Assembly (NCBI GenBank): GCA_900537185.1
Contig: LS999831.1
Coordinates: forward strand, 124,001-188,000
Origin: Cytophagales bacterium Alg240-R148
GTDB lineage: Bacteria > Bacteroidota > Bacteroidia > Cytophagales > Cyclobacteriaceae
DNA length: 64,000 nucleotides
Reading direction: 5' to 3'
Made by a program: the position numbers and the translations under genes
The notes under the pieces: generated by a model
Told to the model about the DNA's origin: nothing
Database searches by the model: none
What the model saw: only the letters and a program-made list of their open reading frames with translations
In this document: positions 34,410 to 45,274 of the stretch, one piece after another
Layout of the letters: each line of letters begins with the position of its first letter
Numbering within the stretch: position 1 is the stretch's first letter

Positions 34410-35561
34410 TTATCTCTTTCTTCTTTTTTTGGAAGGACTCTTCCTTTTATAAGAAGACTTTTGTGCCCTAGCACGCTTTTTATAACTAGGACTCTTTTTA
34501 GATTTCTTTAATTTTCTTGAGTTGGGAGATTTGTTATAGCGCCAACTTGGTGAATACCGTTTTACTCCTTTCTTGTTTTTCTTACTTGCCGCTTTTGGCC
34601 CTTTTGCTCCTACCCTTCCTTTAGGCGAACTTAAGGTTTTCCGCCTATAAGTCATGGAGCTTTTATAGTCGGTTCTGTATTTTTTCTCGTAATTAATTTT
34701 GTTAAAATCGAACCTTAAAGTGAATTCATTGGAAGCGCCTATATCGGAACCAATATCGTTGTTAACAAATTCATAGGAATAGCCAATTAGAAGTTTATCC
34801 AATATTTTAAACCCTGCAGTAGCACTGATAACATCCCCTTTTCTAAGCCCTCCTCCGAGAACAAATAGGCCATCATAGGTGTAGAATAAACCAACCCCCC
34901 AAGTATTGTTAATATCTGAATATTTCCGAAAGTTAAACAGCGGCTCTATCAGGTCTTTCCCTCCTCTTAAAGGCAAAGTTCCTTGCACATAGGCGGTATA
35001 GAAATTAGACAACAAATTCGCATTCTTATCAATACCAAAACTGGTGGCCAATCTGTTAACAGACAGTCCTACTTTTAAATAGTCATTGGAGTAATTGGCA
35101 CCAAAAGAAAAATCATAGGCAGAGTTGGTCTCGCTCAATACGGGGTCTTCCAAACTCCCTATTACATTATTAATATTGTGCCCAATCCTGTTGAATTCGG
35201 CTGATACTCCCATCGACAACATGTCTGTCCCATTCAAACGGATGTGGTACGCAAATGCGCCAGAGGCATATAAATTAGAAACAAAATTCACCTCCTCTTG
35301 GAATACATTTAACCCCATCCCAAATCGATGTCCTTTTATAGGGGTATGAATGCTCAAAAAATTACTTTTTGCTGCCCCCTGAACGTTCCCAAAAGACTGT
35401 CTGTGGGACAGTGTCGCAGACCCATAACTATTTCCTGCAAAAGAAGGGTTGTAGATAAAGGCGTTGGTTAACTTTTGGCTAAATAAAGGAATGTCCTGTG
35501 CATTTCCACTGGACAGCAACAGTATTAAAAAGGACACTATACATAAGAGTCGTTGCTTCAT
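34410..35561 (-). CDS. PorP/SprF family type IX secretion outer-membrane protein with basic tail
   Basis: Outer-membrane protein of the PorP/SprF group, which work as cargo-specific attachment proteins for type B sorting domains in T9SS. A signal peptide (ending GNAQ near residue 22) precedes a 270-residue beta-barrel region containing PLFSQKLTNAFIYNPSFAGN, the standard PorP opening. The last 90 residues (about 294-383) are an unusual low-complexity tail with 38 Lys or Arg residues plus Ser and Pro, ending KKRRKR. The gene overlaps the preceding cargo gene by 4 bases (ATGA). The cognate cargo is almost surely that neighbour. Confidence 0.87.
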   Translation of the reverse strand: MKQRLLCIVSFLILLLSSGNAQDIPLFSQKLTNAFIYNPSFAGNSYGSATLSHRQSFGNVQGAAKSNFLSIHTPIKGHRFGMGLNVFQEEVNFVSNLYASGAFAYHIRLNGTDMLSMGVSAEFNRIGHNINNVIGSLEDPVLSETNSAYDFSFGANYSNDYLKVGLSVNRLATSFGIDKNANLLSNFYTAYVQGTLPLRGGKDLIEPLFNFRKYSDINNTWGVGLFYTYDGLFVLGGGLRKGDVISATAGFKILDKLLIGYSYEFVNNDIGSDIGASNEFTLRFDFNKINYEKKYRTDYKSSMTYRRKTLSSPKGRVGAKGPKAASKKNKKGVKRYSPSWRYNKSPNSRKLKKSKKSPSYKKRARAQKSSYKRKSPSKKRRKR

Positions 35562-36682
35562 TTGGCCACAGTTACAGTTTGCTTAATTGTATTTTCACCA
35601 CCATTGTACTTGAAAATGCAGATATAATTTCCTGGTGGAAGAAAAGTAAAGTCATCTCCAGGAAGCCCAACTTCTGGGACCGGATTGACATAGTTTTTTT
35701 TCTGATAGACCGCTACACCCCACCTATCGACCAACGTTATTTCGTTTTCTGGATACCGGTCTACATTTTGTACAAACAAATAATCGTTTACATTGTCGCC
35801 ATTGGGTGAGATAATATTGTGTACCAAAGGCGTTTCACTAATTACTCTTCCCACCATAAAATAACCAGTGGACCCTGGGTTTCTAGATTGCACATTGTCG
35901 TCTGCTATGGAGCCACTTAAAAAATCGTTGTCTAAATTAACAGCCAAACCCGAGGCGTCCACCTGAAGCACAACTGGGCGGTCAAAAGTGTTAAACTCCG
36001 CTTTGTCCTCCTCCCTAAAAGGCAATACAATCTGCCCCCCAGAAAAATTATTGTTTTCATCTTCAATTTGCCAGTACCAATTGGAAGAGGCACTTCCTAC
36101 CTCCAATGGAAGGTTGATTGGGCTTACTTCCGATGCAAAACTTCCATTACTTACCGAACCTACCACCAAGCTTCCAGAGGAGACTCCTTCCACCACTAGT
36201 GGTGCATATCCAACCCCGTTGGCATTGGAACCGATGGGAAATGTCAATGTACTGGAAACATCTGTTGCGGTACGGTCATAAAAAAACTTGTCCAAAACAA
36301 AAGACAATTCAGACGCATTTTCAATTAAACCAGGATCTCCTGCAAACCCAAAAGCATCCTCCGCAAGGATGTGCCCCTCGGAAAGATCCAATAAAATTTC
36401 AACGGTAGTCCTATTAGTAAAACGCTTGAGCCCACCACCTAATATGGTAAGGCGTTTTATAACAAATTCATTGGCAGTAGTAATGTTTTGATTCTCTCCT
36501 ACCAATACCAAGCTCGCCGAACCTAGATTGCTCAAGTTACTTTCAATAGATACATCTGCATTCGTGCTAATTGTGGTTAGGTCTCCGCTCGCAAATTGAT
36601 CGGTAGCAACCGTTATTTGTGCACAAAGAATTGTTGGGGACAATAAGCCTAAACCAAATAATATGTAGAAAACAATTTTCAT
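35558..36682 (-). CDS. T9SS cargo with type B (gliding-motility-type) C-terminal sorting domain
   Basis: Secreted protein of 374 residues with a signal peptide (ending LCAQ near residue 21), a beta-rich body with Ser/Asn-rich strands (about 25-280) and a C-terminal type B sorting domain (about 285-374). That domain has the recognisable order SPNGDNVNDYLFVQN, ITLVDRWGVAVY and FLPPGNYICIFKYN, as in gliding-motility-associated C-terminal domains. It overlaps the PorP/SprF gene by 4 bases, the usual pairing for type B cargo. Function of the body is unknown; a surface filament or adhesin is possible. Confidence 0.85.
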   Translation of the reverse strand: MKIVFYILFGLGLLSPTILCAQITVATDQFASGDLTTISTNADVSIESNLSNLGSASLVLVGENQNITTANEFVIKRLTILGGGLKRFTNRTTVEILLDLSEGHILAEDAFGFAGDPGLIENASELSFVLDKFFYDRTATDVSSTLTFPIGSNANGVGYAPLVVEGVSSGSLVVGSVSNGSFASEVSPINLPLEVGSASSNWYWQIEDENNNFSGGQIVLPFREEDKAEFNTFDRPVVLQVDASGLAVNLDNDFLSGSIADDNVQSRNPGSTGYFMVGRVISETPLVHNIISPNGDNVNDYLFVQNVDRYPENEITLVDRWGVAVYQKKNYVNPVPEVGLPGDDFTFLPPGNYICIFKYNGGENTIKQTVTVAK

Positions 36683-36913: not shown

Positions 36914-38068
36914 TTGAATCACAAAGTATTATATGCTGCTTTTGACCTTTTCCCAACTGCAAAAGGCGCTTCTACGCACATCGAAGTTTTTTCCAAACGA
37001 ATGTTTCAAGTATTTGATGGCGGCATGTTGTTTACTTTGGGCAACATACTCTATGCGCCTTCCGAAGTAGAAGGAACTATCGAAATTAAGCGTTTTGTAG
37101 AACAAATCCCTCAATATATGGAAAGGGCCAATGCTTACGGAAAAGCCTTGTCCAAACAAATCGAGCAAATGCCGCATTTGGAACTGGTTCATTTTAGAGA
37201 TATTTGGTCGGGGTTGGCCAGCCTACATCCAAAAAGAACCTACCGCTGTATTTACGAAGTAAATGGCCTACCTTCTATAGAGTTGCCCTACCGGTACCCT
37301 GAATTAAAAACCAAAACGATACAAAAACTGAGACAATTAGAACTTCGTTGTTTAATGGATTGTGATCGAATTATAGTGCCTTCAAAAATTATTTTAAATA
37401 ATTTAGTCCAATTGGGTATTGCTGCATCAAAAATCAGCCACATACCCAATGGGGCTTCCTTGCAACCTGAAATCCAGGACAAAGTTATTTGCCCTTCTCG
37501 GTACCTCATTTATTTTGGTGCCGTGCAAAAGTGGCAAGGGTTGGCAACCTTGCTTAAAGCCATGGCCTTGTTGAAAGATTTTGAAGATCTTAAATTAATG
37601 GTCTGTTCTTCCAACAGAGAAAAAGAAACCAAACAACTCCGCAAACTAGCCAACAAATTGGGCATTGCCGGGTCCATCATTTGGAAATACCAACTTGAAA
37701 AAGCTGAATTGAATGCGTATATTAGGAATGCTGAATTGTCTATAGCTCCATTAGCCGAATGCAGCCGAAACATTGCTCAGGGGTGCTCTCCACTTAAAGT
37801 TTTGGAGTCGATGGCTGTTGGAACAGCGGTAATTGCGTCTGATCTACCAGTTGTAAGGGAGATTATTGACCCTGGTATTAATGGGAAATTAGTGCCTCCA
37901 GATAGGCCCCAGGAATTAAGCAGAGCCATTCGGGTATTACTGGAGTATCCCAAAGAAAGAAAAAAATTGGGACACAGCGGCATGCAAAAAATAAAAAGTG
38001 AACGCAATTGGGACGCTATTTTACCTCAACTTGATGCGGTCTATTCACAATTGATGGCAACACCATGA
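36914..38068 (+). CDS. Glycosyltransferase family 4 protein (cluster gene 1)
   Basis: GT-B glycosyltransferase with the N-terminal VLYAAFDLFPTAKGAST motif and the C-terminal nucleotide-sugar site SIAPLAECSRNIAQGCSPLKVLESMAVGT (near residue 305). About 384 residues. I place the start at TTG 36914, where the Rossmann strand begins; a GTG at 36827 would add 29 residues that include the hairpin of the intergenic region and look non-native. It leads a six-gene run with overlapping ends; its stop overlaps the next gene by ATGA. Substrates are unknown. Confidence 0.85.
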   Translation: MNHKVLYAAFDLFPTAKGASTHIEVFSKRMFQVFDGGMLFTLGNILYAPSEVEGTIEIKRFVEQIPQYMERANAYGKALSKQIEQMPHLELVHFRDIWSGLASLHPKRTYRCIYEVNGLPSIELPYRYPELKTKTIQKLRQLELRCLMDCDRIIVPSKIILNNLVQLGIAASKISHIPNGASLQPEIQDKVICPSRYLIYFGAVQKWQGLATLLKAMALLKDFEDLKLMVCSSNREKETKQLRKLANKLGIAGSIIWKYQLEKAELNAYIRNAELSIAPLAECSRNIAQGCSPLKVLESMAVGTAVIASDLPVVREIIDPGINGKLVPPDRPQELSRAIRVLLEYPKERKKLGHSGMQKIKSERNWDAILPQLDAVYSQLMATP

Positions 38069-38949
38069 ATAAAAAAAAACAATTGGAACGGTTGCAGAAA
38101 ATCCAATCTGAATTGTCTCCAGAACAAAGAGAAGTCTTAAAAACAAGGAAACTATCCGGGCGATATTCTACGTTGAAATGGATGAAAATCATGAAAAAGC
38201 TGGCCTTATTCGATGAGTTTGGAGATCTGCTGTATGCCACCATTAAAAAGAAAAGAAATTGGGCCATTGCCTTTATGATTTTCTTTTTTATAGTCGCTTT
38301 GTTATTCAATGAAAATTTTTCCGGGGTACCAATGGTTGCCTTTTTTGTTTTGTCCTTGGTGTCTTTGGTTCTACTCATTGTATGGTCTCGATCCATGAAA
38401 AAATTAAGATCAAATGATTTAGACAATGGCTTCAGAAATTTAGTTGTTCCATTGGTTGGTATATTCAATGAAGAAATAAAATCGGGAACAAAGCTCCTGT
38501 TGGAGGTGGATGCCGGAGACCCAATGCGGAAAGAAAACTATACCGACACACAAAAAAAACAGAGCTTTCATGGACGCACCTTTGTAAACTATTATTCTGA
38601 ATGGTTAAAAGGCAACCTTATTTTAGTAGACGGGGCACAATTGTATTTTTCGAGCGTTAAAAAATGTCAAAAAATTAAGATTACCAAACGCAGTAGAAGT
38701 GGCAAAACCAAATACAAAACAAAAATCAAATTGAGAGAAATCAACCAATTTAAATTGGTGCTCCCAAAAAGCAATTACCAACTACAACCCGATCAATACC
38801 CTCATATTAGAAAACAAGAAACCGAAACTGAAATTGTTTTGAAAGCTAAAATTACTAGAAAGTCCGCTTTAATTGACAATACCTCTTTAGAAGTATTTTT
38901 AAACACCATTCACGCCATGTACAACACGGTAAAACCCCTTGCTTCATGA
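38065..38949 (+). CDS. Membrane protein of unknown function in the glycosyltransferase cluster
   Basis: 294 residues that I do not recognise. There is a charged N-terminal cytoplasmic part (1-65), two membrane helices (about 66-81 and 90-107) and a large Lys-rich soluble domain after them (about 115-294) with a mixed beta/alpha look. The start ATG overlaps the previous stop (ATGA), and its own stop overlaps the next start in the same way. Tight coupling to glycosyltransferases suggests a membrane anchor or regulator of the pathway, but that is inference. Confidence 0.75.
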   Translation: MNKKKQLERLQKIQSELSPEQREVLKTRKLSGRYSTLKWMKIMKKLALFDEFGDLLYATIKKKRNWAIAFMIFFFIVALLFNENFSGVPMVAFFVLSLVSLVLLIVWSRSMKKLRSNDLDNGFRNLVVPLVGIFNEEIKSGTKLLLEVDAGDPMRKENYTDTQKKQSFHGRTFVNYYSEWLKGNLILVDGAQLYFSSVKKCQKIKITKRSRSGKTKYKTKIKLREINQFKLVLPKSNYQLQPDQYPHIRKQETETEIVLKAKITRKSALIDNTSLEVFLNTIHAMYNTVKPLAS

Positions 38950-39305
38950 GTAGTTGTCAAATGAAAAAAGGTATTTTCGTTCAGAGAGCCTGCAACCGCC
39001 CTACCACTGTACAGTGTACACAATGCCAAACCCCAGTTTGCAACCACCATTACAAACAATCTGAACAAGGGACGCTTTGTTTTAGCTGTTATGCCTCCCA
39101 AAACCAAGAAGGAGAAGTAGAAGCAGAAGAAAATGTTATGGTTCACCACTACCACTGGTGGTACTGGAACACTAGAAGCCATTACCACAGCACCTACCAC
39201 GACGATTATGTAACCTTTGATGAATCGGACTATGAAGGTTTTAATACCCATGACGGAGACAGCTACGATAGAATGGACCAAGATGATGATTTTTTCGATA
39301 GCTGA
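38946..39305 (+). CDS. Small putative zinc-binding protein with acidic His/Tyr/Asp tail
   Basis: 119 residues. The N-terminal half has a cross-brace-like set of ligands: Cys16, Cys24-x-x-Cys27, Cys32, His34/His35 and Cys45-x-x-Cys48, resembling a B-box or zinc-ribbon arrangement. The C-terminal half (about 66-119) is rich in His, Tyr, Trp, Asp and Ser, with a DDDFFDS end. No signal peptide, so it is cytoplasmic. ATGA overlap with the membrane protein before and a one-base overlap with the glycosyltransferase after. Function unknown; metal or nucleic acid or protein binding is possible. Confidence 0.75.
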   Translation: MSSCQMKKGIFVQRACNRPTTVQCTQCQTPVCNHHYKQSEQGTLCFSCYASQNQEGEVEAEENVMVHHYHWWYWNTRSHYHSTYHDDYVTFDESDYEGFNTHDGDSYDRMDQDDDFFDS

Positions 39306-40420
39306 TGCGGATATTGTGGATTACTGAAAATTACCCCCCACAGCGCGGTGGTATGGCCCAATCGTGTGATCGAATTGTGGCGAATTTAAGAAAAAGAGAT
39401 GTTCATATAGACGTTGTACATTTTACAAATAAAAAAAAGCCTTTTGAGTCTGAGTTAAAAGTTATGGGCAGCTATACTGCACTACCAAAAACAGTTGACA
39501 TGGCCCACGGGCTCAATTTAGCTCTTACCCATTTAGAACAGCACTTTGCAGAACAATCGGACCTTATTGTAGCGTTTGGAGGTGTTTTCCCAATGACCGC
39601 CATTGCTACCTTCAGTGCAGTACTGAACATTCCTTACTACTTATGTTTGCGGGGCAACGATTTTGACATTGGCCTTTTCTCTTACAAAAAAAAGTACTTG
39701 TTGGACCAAGCCATTAACAACGCACAAGGTATCTTTGTTAATAGTTTCGATAAAATAAGGCGGATTGAAGCCATTTATAATAAAGCTGCTTATTTCACAC
39801 CCAACTCGATTGACCTAGAGACCTGGACCCCATTGTTAAGTGAAAAAGAAAAAGCAAAGGTATGGAGAGAAAAACACCTACCACCCAACGTGCAATGCAT
39901 TGGTCTTTTTGGGTTTTTAAAAGAAAAAAAAGGGGTTTTGTTTTTTCTACAATCCCTTGTAAAAAGCGGCACCAAAAAAAGCGTTTTTTTACTCTTTTCA
40001 GGCACATTAGAAGCAGAAGTAGAAGCCTTTCTAAACGCTGAAAATATAGAATACCTGCAAACTCCATTTTTAGAAAGAATTGCACTCCTCCCTTATTATT
40101 TAATGTGCGACTGGGTGGTAATCCCTTCTTTTTATGAAGGCATGCCCAATGTATTGCTTGAGGCAGGAGCGTTGCACCTGCCAATTGTTGCCAGTGCCAT
40201 TGACGGCATGAAAGATGTCATAAAAAACAACCAAACAGGATGGCTATTTCAAACCAACAATACCAACGATTGTGCCGAAGTAATTCGGCATGTAATTGGG
40301 CTCAGCCAAGAACAAAGAAAGAAAATAGGCGCTGCATTATTTGCAGATATCAAATGTAATTACACCTTAGAAAAAGAATCTAATAACTATTTAAATGTCT
40401 TTAAAAATGATGGATTTTAA
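39305..40420 (+). CDS. Glycosyltransferase family 4 protein (cluster gene 4)
   Basis: GT-B fold enzyme of 371 residues. The N-terminal motif ENYPPQRGGMAQSCDRIV is typical of GT4, and the sugar-nucleotide domain contains the segment PSFYEGMPNVLLEAGALHLPIVAS (about 278-301), which includes the GT4 E-x7-E pair (Glu283, Glu291). It begins one base inside the previous gene's stop and its last 26 bases overlap the following lipoprotein gene. Donor and acceptor unknown. Confidence 0.88.
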   Translation: MRILWITENYPPQRGGMAQSCDRIVANLRKRDVHIDVVHFTNKKKPFESELKVMGSYTALPKTVDMAHGLNLALTHLEQHFAEQSDLIVAFGGVFPMTAIATFSAVLNIPYYLCLRGNDFDIGLFSYKKKYLLDQAINNAQGIFVNSFDKIRRIEAIYNKAAYFTPNSIDLETWTPLLSEKEKAKVWREKHLPPNVQCIGLFGFLKEKKGVLFFLQSLVKSGTKKSVFLLFSGTLEAEVEAFLNAENIEYLQTPFLERIALLPYYLMCDWVVIPSFYEGMPNVLLEAGALHLPIVASAIDGMKDVIKNNQTGWLFQTNNTNDCAEVIRHVIGLSQEQRKKIGAALFADIKCNYTLEKESNNYLNVFKNDGF

Positions 40421-41033
40421 ACACAAAATACTCGCAATGGCATTGTTGTTATTTTTGTGGTCTTGTGGTACTGAAAACAGATCAGAAAATGTGGCATCAG
40501 CGGAAACAGGACAGGAAAACACTGCTACAACCGGCGGCAGCCAACAAGAAATAAAAATTATTGCACAAGACAATGTAGCCATTGCTACCATTACCATTGG
40601 AGAAGCAGTGAACATTAGCCTTGGCAACGACTTCATTTATTCCAAAATTGGGTCTTCTGGTAAAAGAAAATACATCGGCGGCAGCGAAACTACCTTGGCA
40701 AAAATCAACCGATACGACTATGGGTTTAAATTAAAAACTTTAGAAGGGGCCGTGCTCTGGAAGGTGAAAAATGAAGAAGGACATATTAAAATTGCCAACA
40801 ACGACGCAATGGAGAATGCCTTTAAAATTAAGAAAAAATCAAAAACAAAAATTTATAAAAACGAAGAAGAAGTTGGGCATGCCAAAAAATCTGATGCATT
40901 TATTACTGTACAGGGCAGTGCAGGCTCACAATTAAAAGTAGTTTCGGAAAACGAACTTATTGCTGCGGTGATAGGCATAGAAGAAATCCCAATTGCGGAG
41001 CGTTTGATTATTCTGGCCGAACTGCTGCAATGA
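40395..41033 (+). CDS. Predicted lipoprotein in the glycosyltransferase cluster
   Basis: 212 residues, not recognised. A lipoprotein signal ends at LWSC, with Cys24 (if translation begins at ATG 40395; ATGs at 40407 and 40410 would give a shorter, more standard signal). The mature part has a short Asn/Glu/Thr linker (about 26-60) and a beta-rich domain (about 60-212). It overlaps the preceding glycosyltransferase by 26 bases and the next gene by ATGA. Lipid-anchoring in the periplasm hints that the cluster's product is delivered to the envelope. Confidence 0.75.
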   Translation: MSLKMMDFKHKILAMALLLFLWSCGTENRSENVASAETGQENTATTGGSQQEIKIIAQDNVAIATITIGEAVNISLGNDFIYSKIGSSGKRKYIGGSETTLAKINRYDYGFKLKTLEGAVLWKVKNEEGHIKIANNDAMENAFKIKKKSKTKIYKNEEEVGHAKKSDAFITVQGSAGSQLKVVSENELIAAVIGIEEIPIAERLIILAELLQ

Positions 41034-41851
41034 TATTGTATTATGCCGTTGGTGGAGGCCTTGGACACCTCTCCAGGGCCAGGAAAGTATTGGATAAGCT
41101 GAAAATCACGAACTTTATGGTCATAACAGGCATCCAAAACAACCCGGTTTTTGACCCAAGTAGAAGCATTTTAATTGAAAACAAGGACACCAACACGTTG
41201 CAATCAGAACTGCGCTTTTGGACCAACAAAGCTTCCATATTAATTGTTGATACATTTCCAAACGGTGTTTTAGGAGAATTAAGCAACCAAGAACTGTCCA
41301 TTCCCATTTGGTACATAGCCCGAAGCCTTGACATGCATTCCTATGGCAGTAAATTACAACCTGCACCATTGGATAGAACCTTTGTTATGGAAACGCTTCC
41401 TCCGTTACAAGCAGCATTTGTTCAGAAGTACTCCAAAAAAATTGAAACCATGGCGCTGCAACCCCTTAAAAACCCAAAGGACAGCGCATTCACTTCCAAA
41501 CAACCATTTTGGTTGGTGCACCATTCTGGCCCAATAGAGGAGGTAATGAGCTTGTACGCCTATGCAAAAGACATTGCTGTTGTAGAAAAAAAGAATCCTA
41601 AAATTGTGATTAATACCCAATGCGCTGCCGATTTATTGCACGCTGTACCCGCTGTTATCACCCACTTTTTTCCTATTCACCAACTATTGGTTTCAGCCGA
41701 AAAAATAATTACGGCCTGTGGTTTTAATACCATGTCAGAAACAGAGCCATTCGCCTATAAACATCACTTTCTTCCATTTGAAAGAAAATACGACGACCAG
41801 TTTACAAGAGCCAAAATTAGAAATCAAAAACAAATCAACAAGACTCGATAA
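41030..41851 (+). CDS. MurG-like GT-B glycosyltransferase (cluster gene 6)
   Basis: 273 residues with the N-terminal Gly-rich YYAVGGGLGHLSRARKVL motif typical of MurG/UDP-GlcNAc transferase-type GT-B enzymes, and a C-terminal acceptor or nucleotide-binding segment (near residues 225-250: SAEKIITACGFNTMSE). It is somewhat shorter than many relatives. It overlaps the lipoprotein gene by ATGA and ends the cluster 88 bases before the HAD gene. The donor is probably a UDP-sugar, but this is inference. Confidence 0.8.
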   Translation: MILYYAVGGGLGHLSRARKVLDKLKITNFMVITGIQNNPVFDPSRSILIENKDTNTLQSELRFWTNKASILIVDTFPNGVLGELSNQELSIPIWYIARSLDMHSYGSKLQPAPLDRTFVMETLPPLQAAFVQKYSKKIETMALQPLKNPKDSAFTSKQPFWLVHHSGPIEEVMSLYAYAKDIAVVEKKNPKIVINTQCAADLLHAVPAVITHFFPIHQLLVSAEKIITACGFNTMSETEPFAYKHHFLPFERKYDDQFTRAKIRNQKQINKTR

Positions 41852-44785: not shown

Positions 44786-45112
44786 AGGCAGACTTTTTTA
44801 GTGAATCACTTTGTTTATAATGGCACCAAAAAAATTCCGAAGCAAAACCCATTCACACTCGGTATAATTATATTGTTTTCAGAAGGTTACTCAATTAAAA
44901 TACAAAAAATACACTTAATTCTAGTTAATATTTAACTATTTTTTATTCGAAAACAAGAAGGAATTCAAAATCAGAAAGGACTGAATTAGGCGTTTTTAGA
45001 AAAAATTGAAATAGAAAAATAAACAGCCTAGTTCCGTGCAACGATTGGAGGATTAAAAATAGGGGGTTAAAAAAAAGACAAAAAAAAAGCAGTCTTTTCA
45101 GACTGCTTCTAG
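44786..45112. other. AT-rich intergenic region
   Basis: 327 bases between the lipocalin-like gene and the tRNA gene. Apart from the tRNA terminator at 45080-45107 I see only AT-rich sequence with no conserved gene, no clear promoter and no long repeat. Confidence 0.55.
45080..45107 (-). terminator. Rho-independent terminator of the initiator tRNA
   Basis: On the minus strand an 8-bp stem AGCAGTCT / AGACTGCT with loop GAAA is followed by nine T, immediately downstream of the tRNA 3' end. Confidence 0.9.
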
Positions 45113-45185
<73 letters not shown>

Positions 45186-45274
45186 ATATATCTTAATGGC
45201 TAATTTTTCTTTAAAAATTTGCCTTTGTTTCATTTGGGAGTACAAACGTAGAAGTATTTTTAATTAAAAACAAG

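Follow-up and report, generated by a model that had tools for sequence, protein, structure and literature searches.

A six-gene glycosyltransferase cassette with a conserved Asp-Ser-ended acidic tail in Cytophagales bacterium Alg240-R148 and other bacteria

Several described systems each share some features with a six-gene cassette at positions 36914–41851 of the plus strand of a 64,000-nucleotide stretch of DNA (hereafter the window) from the 5.3-Mb, 99.9% complete genome of Cytophagales bacterium Alg240-R148, a member of the Cyclobacteriaceae. LysW-type amino-group carrier proteins are small and acidic, bind Zn in their N-terminal region and keep a conserved C-terminus with the terminal Glu of an EDWGE-type motif. 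The Cys/His protein of the cassette resembles LysW in its acidity, its N-terminal Zn region and its conserved C-terminus, a likeness that is an analogy only. By comparison, LysW has four ligands and a terminal Glu and is found with amino-acid enzymes, whereas the Cys/His protein has about eight ligands, a longer aromatic tail and an Asp-Ser (DS) end, and is found with glycosyltransferases (GTs); the cassette tails end in DS, and the LysW-type terminal Glu is not present in them. MshA and BshA share the family-4 glycosyltransferase (GT4) family and motifs with two cassette enzymes, GT4a and GT4b, but belong to another operon, and the cassette GT4s fall far below the MshA and BshA cut-offs and are joined by membrane and tail proteins. 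The PF13528 (MJ1255/VC2487) family aligns with the third GT in the G-loop GxGHxxR and the C-terminal half, whereas the third GT is shorter (about 270–290 amino acids, aa), has its own invariant DxFPxGxxGE and RxxDxQxxR motifs and scores below the family cut-off. The family-4 glycosyltransferase of the GPMC system (NF038229) bears a weak likeness to GT4b, and no other GPMC component was recognized in the cassette. LURP-one/Tubby-like proteins give the best PDB match of the lipoprotein domain, with TM-scores of 0.37–0.46 that do not establish membership. Protein O-glycosylation clusters likewise combine several cytosolic glycosyltransferases with a putative protein acceptor, but the cassette has no recognized oligosaccharyltransferase, flippase or phosphoglycosyltransferase.

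The six open reading frames (ORFs) overlap successively by 4 (ATGA), 4 (ATGA), 1, 26 and 4 (ATGA) bases, and all of them, with the sizes and types of their overlaps, were found as an earlier note on this DNA had described them. The features, all on the plus strand, are as follows.

36914..38068, plus strand: GT4a, family-4 glycosyltransferase, 384 aa; TTG start; PF00534 at E 2.9e-26
38065..38949, plus strand: TM, two-helix membrane protein with a predicted cytosolic basic beta domain, 294 aa; AlphaFold2 (AF2) mean predicted local distance difference test (pLDDT) 94.8
38248..38397, plus strand: predicted TM helices (approximate), residues 62–81 and 89–111, with a short outside loop; from sequence and AF2
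38701..38730, plus strand: TM basic strand GKTKYKTKIK (K214, K216, K218, K220); from the count of basic positions
38946..39305, plus strand: Cys/His tail protein, 119 aa; from an alignment of 37 rows from many phyla
38955..39089, plus strand: predicted zinc-binding region, ligands C4, C16, C24, C27, C32, H35, C45 and C48; from conservation
39168..39302, plus strand: acidic-aromatic tail ending FFDS-COOH; D118 in at least 90%, S119 invariant
39305..40420, plus strand: GT4b, family-4 glycosyltransferase, 371 aa; PF00534 at E 4.3e-20
40395..41033, plus strand: lipoprotein, 212 aa, lipobox Cys24 and beta-rich domain; LLFLWSC signal and AF2 domain
41030..41851, plus strand: third glycosyltransferase, 273 aa, distant from PF13528; invariant motifs and hhalign

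Conservation and distribution of the cassette

A GT4a profile scan of 84,980 species genomes returned 375 relatives, and the best 80 of the 375 loci were examined; the scan was seeded with GT4a motif patterns, and loci without such motifs escape detection. These 80 loci lie in Bacteroidota, Chlorobiota, Acidobacteriota, Riflebacteria, SAR324, Pseudomonadota, Chloroflexota and Actinomycetota, several of them in metagenome bins that are possibly misassigned. Most of those with room for the cassette, from several phyla, share its gene order of GT4a, TM, Cys/His protein, GT4b, lipoprotein and third GT. The complete six-gene order is present in Bacteroidota, Acidobacteriota, Riflebacteria, Gammaproteobacteria and Chloroflexota, and SAR324 and Actinomycetota keep the order minus the lipoprotein. 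A survey with all six profiles recovered the full order in 14 loci with room and in one more at a contig end, together with 39 lipoprotein-less loci, mostly from Actinomycetota, in which the lipoprotein occurs in 0 of 35 loci; many Actinomadura species carry the cassette. Judged from these gene arrangements, the cassette order is conserved in at least seven phyla, and since it is the same in dozens of loci from several phyla, it reflects more than chance.

The presence profiles of the individual genes point in the same direction. Of 79 relatives, 12 have TM homologues and 10 the lipoprotein, and the third GT and the lipoprotein have identical profiles (10 of 79; 7e-13 if the genomes are independent, with relatedness not removed). 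Of the ten lipoprotein genomes, five encode the Cys/His protein and four a fusion of TM with the tail, and the tenth locus is cut by a contig end; among five relatives with the cassette in the same order, one has a separate Cys/His gene and four do not. The system is rare, as the lipoprotein occurs in 3 of 395 genomes drawn evenly within the phylum and the Cys/His protein in 5 of 295 drawn evenly within the class.

In some genomes the cassette is dispersed. Flexithrix carries GT4a-TM-Cys/His, GT4b-lipoprotein and the third GT at three separate places, and in Raineya and a Microscilla metagenome-assembled genome GT4b, the third GT and the Cys/His protein are each encoded once, away from GT4a. 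The tested pieces of dispersed cassettes are mostly still present, in one copy each; the exceptions are draft genomes, two lacking GT4b (G723 and G725) and two lacking the third GT (G722 and G724). Genes that are retained though unlinked speak against a hitchhiking cluster and for a functional unit, and the cassette set is kept as a functional unit. The distance matrices of the cassette genes correlate positively (Spearman 0.35–0.77), which lends weak support because host phylogeny is included, and the GT4a tree groups partially by phylum with some mixing that may reflect transfer.

The surroundings of the cassette, by comparison, vary. The flanks are unrelated among seven loci read gene by gene and by eye, and no polymerase, flippase, phosphoglycosyltransferase or other constant neighbor was recognized beside the cassette in them; nucleotide-sugar genes show no consistent attachment to it. 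When flanking ORFs were clustered de novo, shadow ORFs from GC-rich loci dominated the result. Six loci (L076, L080, L085, L094, L056 and L061), from some Actinomycetota, a Bacteroidales bin and SAR324, have an NAD-dependent epimerase-like gene no more than several kb from GT4a; this gene is not constant, and may hint at the sugar donor. GT4a was not found in phages or viral contigs, and plasmids gave a single 27% GT4 match.

Of the earlier note's interpretation, a candidate surface-glycan or protein-glycosylation pathway, the suggestion that the cluster is a dedicated, undescribed system is well supported by the cross-phylum order, the identical profiles, the complementary dispersed pieces and four proteins without a family. 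The note had asked whether the non-glycosyltransferase genes might be absent or scattered in relatives, or might belong to known families. The order proved to be kept in Bacteroidota and other phyla, these genes are absent jointly, scattering occurs with the set largely retained, and none of them matches a curated family above its cut-off. No description of the cassette or its parts was found in the open-access literature, where most subscription papers and preprints are missing. We claim newness for the cassette as a whole system and not for its GT4 enzymes.

Components of the cassette

GT4a and GT4b score 92.5 and 72.4 bits, respectively, against the PF00534 cut-off of 26.4 in a Pfam scan, and by this measure they are ordinary enzymes of glycosyltransferase family 4. 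GT4a orthologues are 39–55% identical, with HFRDxWxG and FEVNGLxSIE near-invariant, and RGND, KxKKG and GxPNV..E are invariant in the GT4b alignment. The GT4b profile matches the BshA structures 5d00 and 2jjm, and both profiles match MshA 3c4q; against the NCBIfam equivalogs, however, the two enzymes reach only 52.4 and 36.6 bits (MshA, cut-off 462.5) and 27 and 40.2 bits (BshA, cut-off 273.7), and GT4b matches GPMC NF038229 at E 1.4e-18 with 67 bits against a cut-off of 400. The third GT keeps GT-B-type motifs, as judged from its alignment, with GxGHxxR, DxFPxGxxGE, GxN and RxxDxQxxR invariant. The earlier note had called it MurG-like, and this label fell while the proposal of a dedicated, undescribed system stood: the protein gave no match to the Pfam or NCBIfam MurG models at E ≤1. 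Its only relative appears to be PF13528 (the MJ1255 family), a weak and very distant one, with 13.9 bits against the Pfam cut-off of 25 and an hhalign match to PF13528 homologues (E 1.5e-5, probability 79.5) that covers the C-terminal half only; the G-loop is shared as well.

The third-GT and Cys/His profiles found nothing convincing among PDB sequences. TM, the Cys/His protein, the lipoprotein and the third GT match no Pfam, NCBIfam or PADLOC family above cut-off, and Pfam and PADLOC scans with members from other phyla likewise gave none. Four of the six cassette proteins are accordingly placed by these profile scans outside every curated family, the third GT having only its sub-threshold match.

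The most constant element of the cassette was found at the end of the Cys/His protein. In a 37-row alignment, the zinc-type ligands C4, C16, C24, C32 and H35 are invariant and C27, C45 and C48 are kept in at least 90%, while the last residue is Ser in 37 of 37 sequences and is preceded by Asp in at least 90%. Among the cassette Cys/His proteins, 66 of 67 end in DS and one in QS, and the last 45 residues have a median charge of –9. The tail occurs in three contexts: as part of the Zn-finger protein, as an extension of TM, or as a free peptide. Four Cyclobacteriaceae cassettes have no Cys/His gene, and there a C-terminal extension of TM ends in FDS instead; in another locus (L054), a free peptide of ~57 residues ending EEALIYLDS lies between TM and GT4b; and in four further loci (L156, L157, L158 and L162) the Zn ligands have decayed yet the DS end is kept. 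Because the tail is placed on different proteins and its DS end outlasts the Zn ligands, the acidic-aromatic tail ending Asp-Ser-COOH, and not the Zn finger, is the constant element of the cassette. A near-invariant C-terminal DS that moves between proteins points to a recognized or modified protein end in glycan synthesis.

The AF2 model of TM (mean pLDDT 94.8) comprises an N-terminal helical region, two membrane helices (modeled at 36–81 and 89–116) and a long-stranded C-terminal beta domain, and a Foldseek search against the PDB gave no match, with query TM-scores of at most about 0.2. The helix flanks are rich in K/R on the predicted inner side, and both termini would lie in the cytosol. 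Among TM rows taken from loci with the tail or the cassette, 56 of 57 have basic residues at three or more of the four positions of the GKxKxKxK strand, and among TM homologues of genomes in which neither a Cys/His protein nor a third GT was detected, 0 of 3 show this pattern, a suggestive contrast between tail-bearing and tail-less genomes at the level of sequence. TM-family paralogues also occur outside cassettes (L036:8710, L040, L044 and L041–L043); some are about 360–380 aa long and have extra hydrophobic segments, L044 holds tandem copies, and the three paralogues from tail-less genomes are without the lysine strand.

The lipoprotein family has a lipobox or a plain signal peptide followed by a beta-rich domain (AF2 pLDDT about 97). 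The best PDB match of this domain is 1zxu, a plant LURP-one-related protein (probability 1.00, E 4.2e-3, about 10% identity), and the TM-scores of 0.37 (query) and 0.46 (target) stay below the 0.5 threshold for assigning a LURP-one/Tubby-like fold. In Raineya (L039:8322-9344), a helical, repeat-like stretch is fused to the domain, and a membrane helix stands in place of the lipobox.

Two start codons are uncertain. GT4a has no ATG start; position 36914 is a TTG and the mechanical ORF opens at GTG 36827, and the TTG is the plausible start because homologues begin within a few residues of it. In the lipoprotein gene, in-frame ATGs at 40407 and 40410 lie 12–15 bases past 40395 and would shorten the 26-base overlap, which assumes a start at 40395 that may not be the one used. 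A promoter and terminator scan gave a result at chance level. The genes just upstream of the cassette and divergent from it (34410–36682, minus strand) encode a type IX secretion membrane protein of the PorP/SprF type and a protein with a CHU_C type IX signal. In Chryseotalea (L122/L032), too, a PorP/SprF-like gene adjoins the cassette; genes of this kind are frequent in the order and may lie there by chance. A 100-aa ORF at 44943–45245 (minus strand) overlaps the tRNA-Met gene at 45112–45185 and is probably not a protein gene.

Proposed mechanism and rival explanations

We consider it somewhat probable that the six genes form one self-contained, membrane-docked machine of three glycosyltransferases at the inner membrane, organized by the tail. 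TM would be anchored in the inner membrane with both ends facing the cytosol, and the acidic tail would dock on the basic GKxKxKxK strand of TM, as their charges suggest. The free end of the tail would then recruit the three cytosolic glycosyltransferases, or be their substrate, and a short glycan would be assembled by these enzymes at the membrane. The beta-rich protein with its signal peptide would, in diderms, work beyond the inner membrane, either on the product or on its export. A more tentative step, by analogy with LysW and acyl carrier protein, which hold intermediates, is that the terminal Ser (or Asp) of the tail may be the acceptor or carrier of the growing sugar. It is more doubtful still that the cassette is a full glycan-carrier-protein system, in which the three glycosyltransferases would assemble an oligosaccharide in covalent linkage to the terminal Ser (or Asp) of the small acidic Zn-finger protein, docked on a TM of new fold that hands the glycan on; such a carrier would be the protein counterpart of undecaprenyl phosphate.

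Several points weigh against the tail-organized machine. The conserved C-terminal DS fits docking equally well as glycosylation. The evidence for docking between tail and TM consists of charge and correlation, all three TM homologues from tail-less genomes are distant paralogues, and the relatedness of the sequences has not been removed from the profile statistic (7e-13). A glycolipid pathway, which we regard as rather unlikely, would account for several of the same observations: the three GTs would assemble a short glycan on an inner-leaflet membrane lipid, the tail protein would only hold the enzymes at TM, and the lipoprotein would assist in the movement or sensing of the glycolipid. Lipid acceptors are common among GT4 and GT28-like enzymes, a membrane protein is among the core parts, no initiating phosphoglycosyltransferase, polymerase or flippase was seen beside the cassette in the loci read, and the lipoprotein is absent from all 35 Actinomycetota loci, all in keeping with this pathway. 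The weak resemblance of the lipoprotein to a LURP-one-related protein, a fold class that includes membrane-tethered proteins, would also suit it, although the match has a TM-score below 0.5. What glycolipid synthesis leaves unexplained is why the tail should keep the same two terminal residues in three protein contexts.

The remaining explanations fare worse. The BshA and MshA structure matches of the GT4 profiles (5d00 and 2jjm for GT4b, 3c4q for both) could indicate biosynthesis of a soluble small-molecule glycoside, like the MshA/BshA steps of mycothiol and bacillithiol synthesis, but every GT4 resembles these enzymes at such distance, the NCBIfam scores lie far under the equivalog cut-offs, a deacetylase and a ligase are missing from the cassette, and a conserved membrane protein and lipoprotein are ill-suited to a cytosolic thiol; we hold it improbable. 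A role in anti-phage defense or conflict, with modification of a surface receptor or killing of the cell, is very improbable in our view. It would agree with the patchy distribution, the compact cassette and the unrelated flanks, whereas PADLOC gave no match for nine proteins, GT4a is missing from phages and viral contigs with only the 27% GT4 match on plasmids, and dispersed single-copy retention and spread over many Actinomadura species are unlike typical mobile defense. The thiol and defense readings were rejected on family cut-offs, PADLOC, gene content and distribution. Three adjacent glycosyltransferases would also be found in an ordinary capsule or lipopolysaccharide locus with chance neighbors; this is scarcely credible, being contradicted by the order conserved across phyla, by a GT gene and a non-GT gene that have exactly the same phylogenetic profile, and by the lack of constant, consistently linked Wzx/Wzy, phosphoglycosyltransferase and nucleotide-sugar genes.

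The cassette order is kept across Bacteroidota, Acidobacteriota and Actinomycetota and its genes have identical presence profiles, and therefore the cassette must do something specific. A recognized or modified protein C-terminus in glycan synthesis would be new, and the idea can be tested directly in hosts that grow in culture, namely Hahella, Chryseotalea, Flexithrix and Solirubrobacter.

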